Origin: Massilia sp. Se16.2.3
GTDB lineage: Bacteria; Pseudomonadota; Gammaproteobacteria; Burkholderiales; Burkholderiaceae_D
Direction of reading: 5' to 3'
Length of the DNA: 64,000 nucleotides
Assembly: GCF_014171595.1 (NCBI RefSeq)
Contig: NZ_CP050451.1
Coordinates: 4,836,001-4,900,000, forward strand
Both the position numbers and the translations under genes were made by a program. Under the pieces are notes generated by a model that saw nothing but the letters and a program-made list of their open reading frames with translations, had not been told where the DNA came from and did not search any database. Below are positions 26,829 through 51,499 of this stretch, in pieces. Each line of letters begins with the position of its first letter. Position 1 is the stretch's first letter.

Positions 26829-28980
26829 CTACTCCACCGTGATCGCCAGGTCCCGCCCTTCCAGCGCCACCTGCCCGGCAAAATCCGCCGCAAAGATGCG
26901 CAAGATGTAGTCCCCGGCGCCAGCCCACCGACACGCCACGAACCGCGCACGGCCTGGCCGTCCTGCAGCCGGTTGTTGACCGCATAGGCGAAGCGCGTGG
27001 CCTTGCTGCCGTAGACGGTGATGCCGCTGCTGTCGGCGTAGACCAGCTTCACGGCTTCGCGCTCGCGCGGCAGGCGGTCGTAGACCTGGGTGATCAGGGG
27101 CTGTTCGTAGCCGGCCACCGGGCTGCCGTCGGCGTGCAGCACCTGGTAGCCCAGCTTGTAGAGGCCGAGGCGCCGCCGCGCCAGGTTGCCGTCCATCTGG
27201 TCGTAGCCGTCGGCCACGATCGTCACCTCTCCTATCGTGCGGGCCACGCGCAGGCGCTCGCCCTTTCGGCCGCAGGCGGCGCCCGGCGTCGTCGTAGAGC
27301 GCGATACCCGGATGCGCGGCGCGACCGTATCGCGCAGGCCGATGAAAGGCAGGGTCAAGGGATTGACCATGGCGCCGCCGGGGTAGTAATCCATGTGCAC
27401 GTGGGCCATCGGATTGATGGTGCCGAGGGCGTCGCCGACGGCGAAGCGGGTGCCGCGCCGTACCCGCACCCGTTCGGGCTTGCCACGCGCACCGAGCAGC
27501 AACTGGAAGCGCGGATCGAGCGCCTTGCCGGCACTGTCGCGGCCCACGCGCATGTGGATATAGGAGAATGGACCGAGGCTCATGCCCTCGCCGAGATTGC
27601 CGAAGGCCCAGTTCGGATAAGGGTCGCTCACCTTCGAGGGCAGGATCGCCAGCACGCGTGAACCGACGTCGGCGCGGATATCGAGACCGCCGTGGAAGTG
27701 GTCGCGGCTTTCGCCGTCGTAGCTGCCGCGCACCTCGCCCATCACGCCGACGACTTCGTGTGCGCCTCCGTCTGCGGGCCGACCGACCCAGGGCATCGGT
27801 TCGCGCCGCACCAGCGCGGCGGCCGGCAAGGCCTGCGCTGGCGGCATCGCGGTGCCCGCCTTCGGCGCGGCCAGCGTGAACACGCGCAGCGCCTGGCCGT
27901 CGCTGACCGCCAGCGAGCCGTCGCGGCGCACGGCGATCCCGCGCGGCGCGTACAGGCGCACCGTGCCGTCGCTGGCATAGCTCGATTCCGGCGGGCGGTC
28001 GACATCCGGCAGGGCGCGATACTGCCCGCCCGGCGCGACCTGGACGATGCGTCCCCCTGCCCCGCTCGCGACATACAGGTAACCGTCGAAGGTCAGCGCC
28101 AGCGCGACGGGACGGCGCAGCATCGGGCGCGGCTCATCCTCCAGCGCCGCGGCGAAGGTCGTCACCGCGCCGAGCTTGTCGATGCGGCGCACGGCATCGT
28201 TGCCGGTATCGGCCACGTACAGGATGCCCTCCTTGTCGACGGCGATCGCGCTCGGCGTATCGAAGAGCGCGGCGCCGCCCGTGCCATCGGCCTTGCCTGG
28301 CGTACTGCCGCCGGCCAGCGTGGTGACGGTACCGTCGGGCGCGATGCGGCGGATGCGGTCGTTATAGGTATCGGCCACGTAGACGACGCCATCGCGATCC
28401 ACCGCCACGCCGACCGGGCCGTTGAAGCGCGCGGCGCGGCCGATGCCGTCCGCGAAGCCGGCTTCGCCGCCGCCCGCGAGCGTGGTGACGCTGCCGTCAG
28501 GCGCGATCTTGCGGATGGCGTGGTTGCCGGTGTCGGCGACGTAGAGGTTGCCGCGGCGGTCCAGCGCCAGGGCGGAAGGGGTATCGAAAGCGGCGGCGGC
28601 GCCGATGCCGTCGGCAAAGCCGGCCTGCGCGCCGGCGAAGGTGCTCACCGTGCCGTCGGGCGCAATGCGGCGGATGCGGTTGCTGTCGCCCCGTCGGCCA
28701 CGAATACGTTGCCTTGAGGATCGGCGACGGCGCCGAAGGGATCGCTGAAACGGCTGGCAGTGGCGGCGCCGTCGACGACGCCACCGACACCGTCGCAAAC
28801 CAGTGGGGTGACGCGTGCCGCCCAGTCCGGTTTCGTGGGCAGCTCGGCCTGCACCGGGATGGCCCGGCCAGGCGTGGCATTCTTGCTGGCCGTGAAATAG
28901 AAGGCCGCGCCTGCGGCGAGCACGGCGGCGCTCGATACCGCCGCGATGAGGATTTTTCGGTTCACTGCTGCTGCCTGCAA
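26829..28980 (-). CDS. NHL-repeat protein with C-terminal M23-like domain (frameshifted)
   Basis: About 717 residues. The N-terminus is a hydrophobic anchor (VNRKILIAAVSSAAVLAAGA). Five or more NHL/beta-propeller repeats follow, with the cyclic pattern GNLYVADTGNHAIRKIAPDG / GVVYVADTYNDRIRRIAPDG and TTLAGG. A C-terminal region near residue 435 has HFHGGLDIRADVGSRVLAI and PMAHVHMDYYPGG, which resembles the H-x-x-x-D and H-x-H zinc ligands of LytM/M23 peptidases. A terminal Ig-like strand region ends LEGRDLAITVE. Frame breaks lie near 28693 and 26913, the latter in a G run (CCGGGGAC) where one more G restores the frame. The start is uncertain (TTG 28980 or GTG 28965). It is probably an envelope protein. 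Confidence 0.65.
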
Positions 28981-45726: not shown

Positions 45727-47379
45727 ATGCTCAACATGACCGCCATCCCACTGACCAGTACGACCAGTTTCCAGGCCCTCGAAACCCATGCCGTAGAGGC
45801 GGAAGACTGGCAGATGCGCAGCCTGTTCGCGGCTGATCCGCAGCGCTTCGAGCGCATGTCGATCGAGGCCGCCGGCCTGTTCCTAGACTATTCAAAAAAC
45901 CGCCTTGACGGGCGCACGCTTGAACTGCTGGCAGCGCTGGCGCGCGAGCGCGGCGTGGAGGCCCGGCGCGACGCGATGTTCGCGGGCGAAAAGATCAACA
46001 ACACCGAAAACCGCGCCGTCCTGCACACCGCCCTGCGCGCCCCGCGCGACCAGCAATTGACCGTGGACGGCCAGGATGTGAGTGGCGACGTGCATGCCGT
46101 ACTGGCCCGCATCAAGACGTTTACGGACGCGGTGCGCAGCGGCGAATGGCTGGGCCATACCGGCAAACCGATCACCGACATCGTCAACATCGGCATCGGC
46201 GGCTCCGACCTTGGTCCGAAAATGGTTTGCCTGGCGCTGCGCCAGTACAGCCACCCGCGCCTGAAGATGCATTTTGTGTCGAACGTCGACGGCCACGACA
46301 TGGACGCCGCGCTGGAACAGGTGAACCCGGAAACCACGCTCTTCATCATTGCCTCGAAAACCTTCACCACGGCCGAGACCATGATGAACGCCCAAACCGC
46401 GCGCGTGTGGTTCCTGCACGATGCGCCGGAAGAGGCCTTGGCGAAACACTTCGTCGCGGTCTCGACCAATGTGGAAGCAATTAAAACCTTCGGCATCGAC
46501 CCGGCCAACATGTTCCCGTTCTGGGACTGGGTGGGCGGGCGTTATTCGGTGTGGTCAGCGATCGGCCTGCCGGTCGCGCTGGCGGTCGGCTTCGGCTACT
46601 TCAGCGATTTCCTGGCCGGCGCCCACGCCATGGACCAGCACTTCCGCACGGCACCTGTCGAGCAGAACATGCCGATGCTGCTGGCCCTGGTCGGCTTCTG
46701 GAACCGCCAGTTCCTCGGCGCCAGCTCGGTCACGATCGCCCCCTACCACCAGGACCTGAACCGTTTCCCGGCCTACCTGCAGCAGCTCGACATGGAGAGC
46801 AACGGCAAGCGCGTCACGCGCGATGGCGAACCGGTGGACACGCCGACCTGCCCCGCCATCTGGGGCGAGCCCGGCACCAACGGCCAGCATGCTTACTTCC
46901 AGCTGCTGCACCAGGGCACCGACGTGACGCCGATCGACTTCATCGCCGCGCTGCGCCCCGCGCACGAACTGCAGAACCACCATACGGCGCTGCTGGCGAA
47001 CTGCTTCGCCCAGTCGGAAGCCTTCATGAAGGGCAAGACGATCGACGAGGTGCGCGAAGACCTGCAACAGCAAGGCCTGTCCCTTGCCGAGATCGAGCGC
47101 CTGGCGCCCCATAAGACCTTCCCCGGGAACCGTCCGAGCAACACCATCCTGATGGAATACCTGACGCCCGCCACGCTGGGTGCCCTGATCGCGCTGTACG
47201 AACACAAGACCTTTGTGCAGGGTGTCATCTGGGACCTGAACAGTTTCGACCAGTGGGGCGTGGAACTGGGCAAGGTGCTGGCCAAGCAGGTCGAGGCGGA
47301 ACTGAAGGGAGAGGCGCGGCTTGACGCGCACGACAGCTCCACCAATGGCCTGATCGCCCGTGCCAAGGCGGCGGTGTAA
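45727..47379 (+). CDS. pgi: Glucose-6-phosphate isomerase
   Basis: 550 residues; intact. Signature segments: [100 protein letters not shown] and [20 protein letters not shown]. It interconverts glucose-6-P and fructose-6-P. ATG 45727 is used; ATG 45736 (MTAIPL) is possible. No clear Shine-Dalgarno is present. It is coupled to the gluconolactonase-like gene by TAATG and preceded by a HexR-like site. Confidence 0.95.
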
Positions 47380-48290
47380 TGATGGGCGCCGACATGAAAT
47401 CCCTGAAATTCGAGGTCGTCCATCACGAGCCGATGCAGGTCGGCGAATGCCCTCTCTGGCACGATGTGGAATCGGCCCTGTACTGGGTCGACATCAACGG
47501 CCTGACGGTCAACCGCGTGCACCCGGCCAGCGGCAAATTCTCGAGCTGGACGATGGCCTCGGAACCATCGGCCATCGCGGCGGACGACGACAACAACCTG
47601 GTCGTGGCGACGCGCCTGGGTTTCGTGCGCCTCAATACAACCAGCGGAGCGATGACCGACATCTGCCCGGCGCCGTACGACACGAAGATTGTCCGCTTCA
47701 ACGACGGCCGCGTCGATCCGCAGGGCCGTTTCTGGGTCGGCACCATGTACGAGCCGCGCGACAAGCCGATGGCGGAAATGTACGTGCTCGAACGCGACGC
47801 GTTGCACCTGGCCTGGTCGGGCAACATGACCAATTCGAACGGCCTGGCCTGGAGCCTTGACGGACGCGCCATGTTCCATGCCGACACCACCAGCCACCGC
47901 ATCGACCGCTACGATTTCGATGCCGCCAGCGGCACGCCGGCGAACGGCCGCACCCTGCTGAGCTTTTCGACCGACAAGACTGCCGCCGACTATGGTGGTC
48001 GCCCGGACGGCGCCACGGTCGACAGCGAAGGAAACTATTGGGTGGCGATGTTCGAGGGCGGCCGGCTGCTGAAGCTCTCGCCCGAAGGCGAACTGCTGCG
48101 CGAGATCCCGCTGCCGGTGCGCTGCCCGACCGCCGTTGCCTTCGGCGGCGCCGACCTGCGCACGCTGTACATCACCAGCGCCAGCCATGGTCGCTCGGCC
48201 GCCGAGGTCGCGCAGTATCCGTTGACGGGCAAGGTGCTGTCGCTGCGGGTGGATGTGCCGGGAGTGGTCAGCGCCGACTACCGGCGCTGA
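47379..48290 (+). CDS. SMP-30/gluconolactonase-family lactonase
   Basis: 303 residues forming a six-bladed propeller. Metal-binding residues expected in SMP-30 enzymes are seen: Glu in QVGECPLWHD near residue 23, Asn in MTNSNGLAWS near 150, and Asp in GGRPDGATVDSEGNYW near 209. ALYWVDINGLTVNRVHPASG is also typical. The start ATG overlaps the pgi stop (TAATG). Placed between pgi and zwf, it may hydrolyse gluconolactone or 6-phosphogluconolactone. No pgl gene is seen beside zwf, so I infer (not proven) that it fills the 6-phosphogluconolactonase step. Confidence 0.82.
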   Translation: MMGADMKSLKFEVVHHEPMQVGECPLWHDVESALYWVDINGLTVNRVHPASGKFSSWTMASEPSAIAADDDNNLVVATRLGFVRLNTTSGAMTDICPAPYDTKIVRFNDGRVDPQGRFWVGTMYEPRDKPMAEMYVLERDALHLAWSGNMTNSNGLAWSLDGRAMFHADTTSHRIDRYDFDAASGTPANGRTLLSFSTDKTAADYGGRPDGATVDSEGNYWVAMFEGGRLLKLSPEGELLREIPLPVRCPTAVAFGGADLRTLYITSASHGRSAAEVAQYPLTGKVLSLRVDVPGVVSADYRR

Positions 48291-48293
48291 CGC

Positions 48294-48589
48294 GTAGGGT
48301 GGTCGGCTCCACCCCGCTTCGTGCATTGACGTGGCGTGTGCGCCGCCCACGCGTTCAACCGGCGCATGCAGGGCCGCTCCCCTCACAAGGTCCGCCTTTC
48401 CTTCGTGCGAGGCCGCGACATATCGGGCGAACGTTGAACGCGTAGTTCAACAATCCTTGAGACGACGCGGTCCTGCATAAGGAGGAATCGGCCCTGTGAA
48501 GCAGCGCGATCGTCATGCGGCTGTTAAACGCGTGGGCGGCGCATATGTAGTCGTCGATCATATCGTCGGGTGGAGCCGACCACCCTACG
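48294..48589. repeat. Long nested inverted-repeat element before zwf
   Basis: The 296-bp element has perfect 22-bp ends (48294-48315 and 48568-48589, beginning CGTAGGGTGGTCGG). A middle pair of 20 bp follows (48341-48360 and 48523-48542, 19/20). A central hairpin GTTGAAC-GCGTA-GTTCAAC lies at 48433-48451. The three nested palindromes could fold into one long branched hairpin. No protein frame of note is inside. Confidence 0.65.
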
Positions 48590-48710
48590 CCGTGACTCAT
48601 CCCACTCCCACCCACCAGAAGAGGCGCGCCCTACCTCCCTCTCTTGTGGCACCATCAACCCGCGCCACGCCGCAATTACGTAGTAGAGTTTCTTGCCAAG
48701 AGCATATTCA

Positions 48711-48725
48711 TGTAGTAAATTTACA
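48711..48725. promoter_or_regulatory. HexR-like operator of zwf
   Basis: TGTAGTAAATTTACA is the best HexR-type palindrome in the window, 38 bp before the zwf ATG. A weaker look-alike (ACGTAGTAGAGTTTC) lies 34 bp further upstream, so HexR may bind two sites. Confidence 0.7.
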
Positions 48726-48763
48726 TCAATAGCTCCTTCTCCTCTTTGCGAACCGAATACACC

Positions 48764-50239
48764 ATGGCTCTTCTTGACTTCGACCTCGTCTTCTTTGGCG
48801 GCAGCGGCGACCTTTCCATGCGCAAGCTGTTGCCGGCAATGTATGCGCGCGATGTCGCCAACGACCTGCCGCCGACCGCGCGCATCATCTGCGTCGGGCG
48901 CGACGCGAGTTCGCAGGAAGCCTTCCTCGACTTCGTCGACACGCACTCGAAGCAGCACATCAAGGACCAGGACAGCATCGATGTGCAGAAGTGGCAGAGC
49001 TTCCTGCAACGCATCACCTATGTCGCCCTCGATGCGACGAACGTGAAGACCTATGCCCCACTGGTCGACGCCTTGCGCCAGGACGATGCGATCACGCGCG
49101 TGTACTACCTCGCCACCCCGCCCCACCTGTTCGCGCAGATCTGCGACAACCTCGCCGAAACCGGCCTGGCGACGCCAAATTCGCGCGTGGTGCTGGAAAA
49201 GCCCCTGGGCCGCGACCTGGAATCGGCCAAGCAGATCAACCTCGACGTCGGCAAGGTGTTCGCCGAATCGCAGATCTACCGGATCGACCATTACCTGGGC
49301 AAGGAAACCGTGCAGAACCTGCTGGCGCTGCGCTTCGGGAACGTGCTGTTCGAGCCGCTGTGGCGGCGCGAATGGATTTCCGACGTGCAGATCACCATCG
49401 CCGAGAAGATCGGCGTCGGCAACCGCCTCGGCTACTACGACACCTCGGGCGCCCTGCGCGACATGCTGCAGAACCACCTGCTGCAACTGCTGTGTATCGT
49501 GGCGATGGAGCCGCCCACCTCGATTTCGCCGGACGCCGTGCGCGACGCCAAGCTGCAGGTACTGCGTTCGCTGAAGCGCTTCACCCCGACCACGCTGGCC
49601 CAGAACATCGTGCGCGGCCAGTACCGCGCCGGCTATGTCGACGGCCAGCCGGTGCCGGGCTACCGCGACGAGCCGGACGCGCCGAAACAGTCGAAGACCG
49701 AAACTTTCGTGGCCATGAAGGCCGAGATCGACACCTGGCGCTGGGCCGGGGTGCCCTTCTACCTGCGCACCGGCAAACGCATGGCCGACCGCCTGGCCGA
49801 GATCGTGGTGCGCTTCAAGCCGATCCCGCATTCGATCTTCAACCAGCCGACGTCGAGCTTCCAGCCGAACAGCTTGGTCATCCGCCTGCAGCCCGACGAG
49901 GGCCTGTCGCTGAACCTGATGGCAAAGACGCCAGGCGACTCCATGCGCCTCAAACAGGCCGAACTCGAACTCGATTTCCGCGAGCAGTTCAAGGCGCCGC
50001 GCATGGAAGCCTACGAGCGCCTGCTGCTCGATGTGCTGCGCGGCCAGCTGACCCTGTTCATGCGCGGCGACGAGCTGGAGGCGGCCTGGGAATGGGTCGA
50101 GCCGATCCTGGACCACTGGGAGCAGGACGACAGCACGCCGGTGCCGTATGCATCCGGCACCTGGGGTCCGGCGGCATCGTCGGCGCTCATTGGGCGCGAC
50201 GGCTTGCAGTGGCGCGAAGAAGCGTTGCCCGAAGACTAA
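48764..50239 (+). CDS. zwf: Glucose-6-phosphate 1-dehydrogenase
   Basis: 491 residues; intact. The NADP-binding loop is LVFFGGSGDLSMRKLLPAMY and the active-site signature is YRIDHYLGKETVQNLLALRF. VVLEKPLGRDLESAKQIN, TETFVAMKAEIDTWRWAGVP and FYLRTGKRMADRLAEIVVRF follow. It oxidises glucose-6-P to 6-phosphogluconolactone, the entry to the Entner-Doudoroff and pentose phosphate routes. ATG 48764 is chosen; the reading frame extends to TTG 48746. Its last residues (LPED then TAA) are the same as the end of each 32-codon unit in the tandem repeat that follows after exactly 2 bp. Confidence 0.95.
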   Translation: MALLDFDLVFFGGSGDLSMRKLLPAMYARDVANDLPPTARIICVGRDASSQEAFLDFVDTHSKQHIKDQDSIDVQKWQSFLQRITYVALDATNVKTYAPLVDALRQDDAITRVYYLATPPHLFAQICDNLAETGLATPNSRVVLEKPLGRDLESAKQINLDVGKVFAESQIYRIDHYLGKETVQNLLALRFGNVLFEPLWRREWISDVQITIAEKIGVGNRLGYYDTSGALRDMLQNHLLQLLCIVAMEPPTSISPDAVRDAKLQVLRSLKRFTPTTLAQNIVRGQYRAGYVDGQPVPGYRDEPDAPKQSKTETFVAMKAEIDTWRWAGVPFYLRTGKRMADRLAEIVVRFKPIPHSIFNQPTSSFQPNSLVIRLQPDEGLSLNLMAKTPGDSMRLKQAELELDFREQFKAPRMEAYERLLLDVLRGQLTLFMRGDELEAAWEWVEPILDHWEQDDSTPVPYASGTWGPAASSALIGRDGLQWREEALPED

Positions 50240-50341
50240 AAATGGCAACGCAAGGAGTCCGGCCAAGCTTGGCCAGACCGTTCCGCAGGCGCATTGCGAT
50301 GCAATGCGAAACCCTGCTTCACCGCTCCCGGAAGATTAATA

Positions 50342-50440
50342 ATGAGAGCGCAAGGAGTCCGGCCAAGCATGGCCGAACTGTTCCGCAGGCGCGTCGCGAT
50401 GCAACGCGAAACCCCTGCTCCACCGCTCCCGGAAGATTAA
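50342..50440 (+). CDS. 32-residue mini-ORF of tandem repeat, unit 2
   Basis: ATG to TAA, 33 codons, beginning MRAQGVRPSMAELFRRR and ending with PED as zwf does. GGAAGATTAATA from the preceding unit gives a GGAAG just before the ATG, so translational coupling from zwf is possible. The arginine-rich centre is unusual for the neighbourhood. Conservation of hairpins despite residue changes (Ile/Val, Cys/Arg) argues that nucleic-acid structure, not the peptide, may be what is kept. Confidence 0.3.
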   Translation: MRAQGVRPSMAELFRRRVAMQRETPAPPLPED

Positions 50441-50442
50441 TA

Positions 50443-50541
50443 ATGAGAGCGCAAGGAGTCCGGCCAAGCATGGCCGAACTGTTCCGCAGGCGCGTCGCGA
50501 TGCAACGCGAAACCCCTGCTCCACCGCTCCTGGAAGATTAA
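50443..50541 (+). CDS. 32-residue mini-ORF of tandem repeat, unit 3
   Basis: Nearly identical to the unit 2 mini-ORF; the end reads PLLED where unit 2 has PLPED. It has the same 33-codon length, the same 2-nt gap before it and the same GGAAG upstream. Translation is unproven. Confidence 0.3.
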   Translation: MRAQGVRPSMAELFRRRVAMQRETPAPPLLED

Positions 50542-50543
50542 TA

Positions 50544-50642
50544 ATGAGAGCGCAAGGAGTCTGGCCAAGCATGGCCAGACCGTTCCGCAGGCGCATTGCG
50601 ATGCAATGCGAAACCCCTGCTTCACCGTTCCCCGAAGATTAA
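50544..50642 (+). CDS. 32-residue mini-ORF of tandem repeat, unit 4
   Basis: 33 codons, with changes against units 2-3: Trp for Arg after QGV, RPF for ELF, Ile for Val, Cys for Arg, SPF for PPL. It ends two bases before the hexR ATG, so hexR translation could be coupled to it. Translation is unproven. Confidence 0.3.
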   Translation: MRAQGVWPSMARPFRRRIAMQCETPASPFPED

Positions 50643-50644
50643 GC

Positions 50645-51499
50645 ATGCTGCTCGACTCGATCCGCACCCAGCTCGACTCGCTCTCCAAATCGGAGCGCAA
50701 GGTGGCGCTGGCCGTGCTGGAGTCCCCCAACACCACGGTCAGCCAGAACATCACGGCGCTCGCGAAAAGCGCGCAGGTATCCGAACCGACCGTGGTGCGT
50801 TTCTGCCGCACGCTCGGCTACGACGGCTGGCACGAATTCAAGCTGAAACTGGCGCAAGGCCTGGCGCTGGCCCTGCCGGCCGCCAACGAGCAGCCGGCCC
50901 AGGACGACCTGGCGGCGGACCTCGTCAATAAAATCTGCAGCCGCTCGATCAACACCCTGCTCGACCTGCGAAACAACCTGAAACCTGAACTGATCCAGAG
51001 TGCGCTCGACATCCTGAAACGCGCCAACAAGATCGAGTTCTACGGCCAGGGCACGTCTGGTTTCGTGGCCGCCGACGCCCAGCACAAGTTCTTCCGCTCG
51101 GGCGTGCCCACCGTGTCCTATACCGACCCGGCCATCCACTCGATCGCCGCCGCCCTGCTGCGCGAAGGCGACTGCGTGGTGGCGATCTCGCAGCGCGGCA
51201 ACAACCCGGCGCTGGTGCGCTCGGCCAAGCTGGCGCGCCGGGGCGGTGCCGACGTGATCGTGCTGGCGCCCTCTGGCACGCCGCTGGCCGACATGGCCAG
51301 CGTCCTGATTCCGATCGACCTGGTCTTCAACATCGACCCCTACACGCCGATTTCCGCGCGCCTGGCTTACCTGGTCGTGATCGACGTGCTGGCCGTGGGC
51401 CTGGCCTTGCAGCGCGGGCCGGAGTTCAGGAAGAAAATGCAGAACGCGCAGAAGGCGCTCGAAGAGTTCGACATGCAGTTCGATTCGTTTATTGGGTAA
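50645..51499 (+). CDS. hexR: HexR, RpiR-family transcriptional regulator
   Basis: 284 residues. The N-terminal HTH_6 domain (SLSKSERKVALAVLESPNTT and AKSAQVSEPTVVRFCRTLGY) binds DNA. The C-terminal SIS sugar-phosphate domain (KIEFYGQGTSGFVAADAQHK, GDCVVAISQRGNNPALVRSA) senses an effector, in HexR usually KDPG. The product matches HexR in length and placement beside zwf. It should repress edd-eda, zwf and pgi through the TGTAGTAAATTTACA-type sites seen before these genes and let go when KDPG rises. Its ATG lies 2 nt after the last repeat unit. Confidence 0.92.
   Translation: MLLDSIRTQLDSLSKSERKVALAVLESPNTTVSQNITALAKSAQVSEPTVVRFCRTLGYDGWHEFKLKLAQGLALALPAANEQPAQDDLAADLVNKICSRSINTLLDLRNNLKPELIQSALDILKRANKIEFYGQGTSGFVAADAQHKFFRSGVPTVSYTDPAIHSIAAALLREGDCVVAISQRGNNPALVRSAKLARRGGADVIVLAPSGTPLADMASVLIPIDLVFNIDPYTPISARLAYLVVIDVLAVGLALQRGPEFRKKMQNAQKALEEFDMQFDSFIG

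Follow-up and report, generated by a model that had tools for sequence, protein, structure and literature searches.

In the genome of Massilia sp. Se16.2.3, the gap between zwf and a hexR-like gene is filled by four head-to-tail units of 100, 101, 101 and 101 bp, and this array is probably a tandemly amplified member of a dispersed palindromic element that is, or formerly was, mobile. Each unit consists of a two-hairpin core of about 73 nt, here termed E, and a duplicate of the zwf 3′ end, and the element has the look of a repeat that was once mobile and homogenises itself, not of a chain of very small genes. All positions refer to the window, the 64,000-nt stretch of contig NZ_CP050451.1 that was analysed. 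The zwf stop codon ends at 50239 and the hexR ATG lies at 50645. Between them the order gene end, X′, E, gene-end copy is repeated, X′ being a sequence of about 8 nt directly before E that is complementary to the end of the preceding gene. The features of the locus are as follows.

48764..50239, + strand: zwf, glucose-6-phosphate dehydrogenase (TIGR00871, 594.7 bits, cut-off 400.6)
50222..50239, + strand: zwf 3′ end, duplicated in every unit (direct-repeat comparison)
50222-50229, + strand: arm X of hairpin 0, the first 8 nt of the zwf 3′ end (Ala-Leu-Pro codons)
50244..50251, + strand: X′ of unit 1, reverse complement of arm X (8/8 pairs; covariation)
50252..50323, + strand: core E of unit 1, 72 nt, short by one base (model R1, 80.9 bits)
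50324..50339, + strand: zwf-end copy 1 (direct repeat)
50344..50351, + strand: X′ of unit 2
50352..50424, + strand: core E of unit 2 (model R1, 86.6 bits)
50425..50440, + strand: zwf-end copy 2 (direct repeat)
50445..50452, + strand: X′ of unit 3
50453..50525, + strand: core E of unit 3 (model R1, 86.6 bits)
50526..50541, + strand: zwf-end copy 3 (direct repeat)
50546..50553, + strand: X′ of unit 4
50554..50626, + strand: core E of unit 4, every hairpin pair Watson-Crick (model R1, 93.1 bits)
50627..50642, + strand: zwf-end copy 4, immediately 5′ of hexR (direct repeat)
50645..51499, + strand: hexR-like regulator, RpiR/MurR family (NF008451, 262.7 bits, under the cut-off of 296)

The identity of zwf is secure (the mechanically called ORF begins at TTG 48746), and the regulator, which scores below the HexR cut-off, is HexR-like. 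Tandem Repeats Finder placed the array at 50231-50642 (period 101, 4.1 copies, 91% match, score 649). A preliminary description of this DNA had reported four copies of about 101 bp filling the gap, each with two hairpins and each ending (PED-stop) in a copy of the zwf end, and these three observations were borne out. On the + strand, the z-scores of the four units lay between −1.9 and −3.9; for the − strand, two units were folded and gave −2.7 and −4.3. The region 50212-50660 folded with a z-score of −6.8, which none of 100 shuffles equalled. An assembly artefact is unlikely, given the one-contig genome, the differences among the units and the single copies at the same place in other assemblies. 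A simple consensus scan of 50100-50800 revealed no promoter-like or terminator-like sites (shuffles give 0.1 and 0.9) and no intrinsic terminator, i.e. a GC-rich hairpin followed by a T run.

A translational relay, in which mini-ORFs of 32 codons join zwf to hexR, had also been suggested, and is very improbable. Units 2–4 do have an ATG, 32 codons and 2-nt gaps, and 5 of the 11 copies in relatives keep a start (ATG, in one case GTG) in frame with the PED stop. However, the chain already breaks at the first unit behind zwf. Unit 1, at 100 nt, is frameshifted and its frame runs past PED, so the exact 2-nt gaps hold at four of the five links and fail here. GGAAG, described as preceding each start, was found before three of the five, but CGAAG stands before unit 1 and hexR. 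Furthermore, start or frame is missing in 6 of the 11 relatives' copies, the unit-4 peptide matches no NCBIfam family, and the length of E varies across its family between 59 and 75 nt (usually 72-73 nt), so that no frame is kept.

The core is not confined to this locus. A blastn search with the array found a match in 24 of 149 genomes, the window's own included, and within that genome (one contig, 5.35 Mb) a unit matched this locus only. A covariance model of the core detected two more, distant copies there (C1:1737102-1737173 and C1:1029265-1029334) and a doubtful third extra copy (E-value 0.08); by the model, the genome has only six copies. Model R1 matched 204 of the 294 genomes of the window's family, from 32 of 44 genera (E-value 0.001), and 30 of 250 genomes drawn from the order, from 23 of 120 genera (E-value 1e-5), where both tallies count the window's genome and 4 of the 30 order matches come from its own family. 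Copy numbers in these surveys are minima, with 16 or 19 candidates scored per genome; a fuller search of six rich genomes gave 13-58 copies each.

In the rich genomes, E is mostly embedded in larger palindromes peculiar to each genome, as in genome G317, where it stands between GGGGTCAG and CTGACCCC. In genome G465, the 14 copies retrieved have near-identical cores and interrupt the palindrome CCCTCACCCCCAACCCCTCTCCC, and the position of E in this host repeat differs between locus L328 and loci L322, L325 and L326. The CCCTCACCCCCAACCCCTCTCCC repeat, into which E can be inserted, is itself dispersed: exact copies of this palindrome half number 64 in G465, where they are uninterrupted, and 51 in G426 (L379-L390 for the two genomes), and the reversed control gave 0. 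In G474, six cores are identical, and the 75-nt flanks on both sides are largely identical too; judging from these flanks the moving unit there would be larger than E; in G474, and partly in G465, E may thus travel inside a larger repeat instead of alone. Dispersed copies with a TTGCA loop have either CAC/GTG or CCC/GGG arms, perfect over 3 nt in 45 of 51 rows, not all of which are independent. Inverted pairs lie close together, for example at L154, L192, L244 and L259. Tandem arrays of two or three units were also seen elsewhere, among them arrays at smpB, hprK and rho (L146, L129, L010, L008, L019, L020), which indicates that tandem growth is a habit of the E family. A search of 50000-50900 against Rfam 15 with E-values up to 1 returned only two chance-level matches (18.5 and 12.4 bits against cut-offs of 55 and 50). 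Plasmid and phage records, from which near records were possibly left out, contained no match for the array, and plasmid records none for two single copies of E. Y1 transposases were the one class of mobilising gene searched, and no E at an E-value of 0.1 or better was found within 1.5 kb of 30 Y1_Tnp loci (30 of 58 matches, from 12 genomes).

E also stands 3′ of hprK, rho, proA and smpB, behind the stop codon and, as at zwf, in the sense orientation at every one of these five loci. These loci were chosen by eye from the flanks, and other copies adjoin genes in other orientations; hprK was named by its NCBIfam match, and we take the other three to be rho, proA and smpB from their translated sequences. 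At these sites, E is followed by a copy of the gene end, which carries the stop codon, starts in clear cases within 0-2 nt of the end of E and is about 15 to at least 45 nt long, weakest for rho. Against a control of 2080 mismatched flank pairs, the direct-repeat score was above the 99th percentile for 17 of 29 zwf copies (12 did not pass), 12 of 13 at hprK, 3 of 5 at proA, 1 of 3 at rho (the tandem copy only) and 2 of 2 at smpB, counts in which several copies are successive units of one array. Among all 107 non-redundant flanks, 11 exceeded the direct-repeat control and 7 the inverted control; since only 11 did so, long duplicates belong to the gene-end class. The space behind hprK (110-150 nt past the stop, or up to rapZ) was free of E at 28 of 30 loci. 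The hprK-rapZ gap of Massilia sp. Se16.2.3 itself (L354) contains another palindromic repeat, which starts GTAGGGTGGGC and ends GCCCACCCTAC, and E occupies this site 3′ of hprK in two same-genus relatives. The earlier idea that the repeat grew out of the 3′ end of zwf holds for the duplicated end in each unit, but not for the core, which is dispersed and also occurs behind other genes and inside other repeats.

Most relatives lack E at zwf. It was found between zwf and hexR in 10 of 78 relatives with both genes and was absent from 68; the absence or unrelatedness of copies in close relatives, named at the outset as a result that would refute the earlier reading, thus applies to most of them, but a same-genus relative (G025, L006) has one copy there. 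A thermosensor or attenuator setting the HexR level is possible, but with no promoter-like or terminator-like site in the scanned region and E missing from so many gaps it cannot be a conserved requirement for HexR control. In relatives without E, the start of hexR commonly coincides with the zwf stop or lies only a few bases from it (14 examples). In two of the 68 (L045 and L047), the gap is 86 nt long and contains one hairpin and a stretch resembling the zwf end, perhaps a decayed E. Two copies are present in L122, L125 and L127.

Relatedness among the copies follows the locus. For all 29 zwf copies, the nearest relative was the zwf copy of another genome, and the nearest copy was at the same locus for 5 of 5 copies at proA, 3 of 3 at rho, 8 of 13 at hprK and 0 of 2 at smpB. 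The two other copies in the genome of Massilia sp. Se16.2.3 are far less similar to its zwf copies. The distance between first-unit copies of E tracked the combined zwf and hexR distance (r 0.52, 0/5000 permutations, 22 rows). We therefore read the history of the zwf locus, from these comparisons, as probably a single ancient insertion that was lost many times and amplified locally. Counted against a single insertion are the five hprK and both smpB copies whose closest relatives stand at other loci, and a quick tree. This tree, of 94 loci of which 26 have E, requires at least 14 changes of presence, 11 of them forced by well-supported branches. Rows with E in this tree were partly selected for carrying it, the unbiased share being 10/78, and a tree of zwf loci cannot separate gains from losses. 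The alternative is that E was inserted repeatedly and independently behind the same genes, by an enzyme recognising a gene-end hairpin. The scattered presence on the zwf tree and the hprK copies related to other loci would suit it, as would the duplicates, which match each lineage's own gene end, and the mirrored 3-nt arms of the dispersed rows, not all independent. Nevertheless, all zwf copies are nearest to one another and follow host distance, and we regard repeated insertion as distinctly unlikely.

The layout of the core is AAGGAG, hairpin 1, CGTTnCGCAGG, hairpin 2, AAACCCCTGCTTCACC. Of the compensatory changes that had been noticed between copies in the array, two pairs are indeed changed on both sides: pair 4 of hairpin 1 is T-A in unit 4 and C-G in units 2 and 3, and pair 4 of hairpin 2 is A-T in units 1 and 4 and G-C in units 2 and 3. 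However, C·A mismatches remain (two in units 2 and 3, one in unit 1), and units 2 and 3, which differ by one base, are one variant. Across the family, covariation of the hairpins is overwhelming. In an alignment of 39 cores, 93.5% of the pair cells were paired, compared with 76.8% after shuffling (0/500), and 136 cells were doubly changed, compared with 35 (0/500); the number of further pair types in this alignment was not above that of the shuffles. At the zwf locus alone, across genera, 95.1% of cells were paired and 59 were doubly changed, as opposed to 18.1 in shuffles. Watson-Crick pairs made up 2170 of the 2240 pair cells in the set of 107 non-redundant copies, and the remainder comprised 21 G·T, 33 A·C and 16 others. 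A·C, which corresponds to G·U on the − strand, outnumbered G·T by 86 to 33 among all aligned copies of alignments A3-A5, but this excess shrinks to 33 to 21 (p 0.065) in the non-redundant copies, and no strand preference or strand of action is therefore claimed.

A third hairpin, hairpin 0, pairs the zwf codons at 50222-50229 with 50244-50251 and encloses the zwf stop codon. Among 25 distinct zwf copies, the score of X′ against its own zwf end was 6.0, compared with 4.52 when arms were swapped among the copies (0/20000 permutations). In 22 first units, the pairing of X′ with the Ala-Leu-Pro codons was changed on both sides at the Ala third base (G, C, A), the Leu first base (T, C) and the Leu third base (G, T, C), so that the covariation falls at synonymous positions of zwf. 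These 22 units contained 20 doubly changed cells, compared with 6.9 in shuffles (0/500), and three doubly changed pairs, which was not above shuffles; as the shuffles use related rows, these figures are not true probabilities. At hprK, the tie between X′ and the gene end showed the same trend but was weak (5.08 vs 4.64, 422/20000), and it was absent among the five proA copies. For the outer stem, formed by X′ and the downstream duplicate, no tie was observed at zwf (3.68 vs 3.83 permuted) and a weak one at hprK (3.67 vs 3.42, 691/20000). Mirrored arms are present at zwf, hprK, proA, rho and smpB.

Selection on RNA structure is the main rival explanation. The three hairpins of each unit would act on the zwf-hexR messenger, by stabilising a 3′ end, affecting ribosome behaviour at the zwf stop or lowering hexR translation, and array length would tune the zwf:hexR ratio. 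This is consistent with the stable fold of the array, the covariation at one locus across genera, its extension into synonymous codon positions by hairpin 0 and the tight spacing of zwf and hexR in most relatives. Structured RNAs are expected to have wobble pairs more commonly than E does, with G·T in just 21 of 2240 cells. The lack of any strand preference, the gap without E in 68 of 78 relatives and the same core at unrelated genes and within other repeats also weigh against this explanation, and we consider it doubtful.

As a whole, we prefer the amplified dispersed element, which could have arisen at zwf as follows. In an ancestor of the group of Massilia, Janthinobacterium and Rugamonas, the two-hairpin core would have landed immediately 3′ of the zwf stop codon, and the insertion would have left the last 16-18 nt or so of zwf duplicated on the far side of E and a short arm complementary to the zwf end on the near side. 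Because the duplicated gene ends may serve as recombination substrates, recombination between them could shrink the array to nothing, giving the clean zwf-hexR junction of most relatives, or expand it to two units, as in L122, L125 and L127, and to the four of the window, and would also account for the near-identity of units 2 and 3. The insertion may be tolerated by hexR because the zwf-end sequence behind which it normally starts is supplied again by the last duplicate. Matching of the arms of the three hairpins would be maintained chiefly by template-switch correction of quasi-palindromes, and possibly by structural selection as well. The rarity of wobble pairs and the co-changes that reach into coding sequence fit such correction: as in template-switched quasi-palindromes, the arms of E change together with few wobble intermediates, although selection could give similar counts. 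Template switching is proposed as both source and keeper of hairpins in one published study (PMC8794818). Counted against the amplified mobile element are the lack of E near the Y1 loci examined, the confinement of long duplicates to gene-end copies, the zwf copies that fail the duplicate test and the shared flanks in G474 and partly in G465.

A more specific version, in which E is a mobile hairpin arriving behind stop codons by a fold-back, target-copying route, would make the far-side duplicate of the gene end and the near-side reverse-complement copy of the target arm (X′) together. The mirrored arms at five loci and the alternative CAC/GTG and CCC/GGG arms around the TTGCA loop fit this route, which we think possible but unlikely. 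If true, insertion would proceed by replication or reverse transcription with template switching, and not by a cut-and-paste transposase.

Among known systems, REP, BIME and REPIN sequences are RAYT-associated elements. E resembles them as a short dispersed palindromic repeat with variable but matched stems and many copies in a genome (13-58 in the rich genomes, six in that of the window), and it also occurs in inverted pairs. It differs in that its unit combines two unlike hairpins with, behind gene-end copies, a duplicated gene end, and in that E was found at 0 of the 30 Y1_Tnp loci examined, i.e. beside no RAYT-type neighbour. MITE-type elements such as ERIC and Correia are non-autonomous and have a target duplication of short, fixed length. 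E is likewise small, non-coding and dispersed and duplicates its target at gene-end copies, but the duplicate varies from about 15 to at least 45 nt and the near-side arm is complementary to the target. Lacking both the RAYT neighbour and the fixed duplication length, E is a variant of dispersed palindromic elements that belongs to neither REP nor MITE. Hairpins attributed to template switching in PMC8794818 share its matched stems and multi-base compensatory changes, but there the mutational process concerns RNA genes, whereas E is a dispersed bacterial repeat with a stem reaching into coding sequence. The searches of open PMC full text brought up no description of E.

Many small intergenic repeats of Burkholderiales are united by E in one family, which offers a natural test of whether compensatory hairpin changes come from RNA selection or from DNA template switching. 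The zwf stem is suited to this test, one arm being conserved coding sequence and the other untranslated. The array is also a caution that covarying hairpins beside a regulator gene are not necessarily a regulatory RNA. Two further repeats, one of them putative, were noted in the window. The mechanically called ORFs at 46893-48386 (−) and 48496-48732 (+), which flank the gap before zwf, share the peptide motif VGGAxxxxxxxxGWSRPPYA and may therefore be a further intergenic DNA repeat that is translated only on paper. At 28307-28680 lies a tandem repeat with a period of 162 bp (2.3 copies, 73% match).
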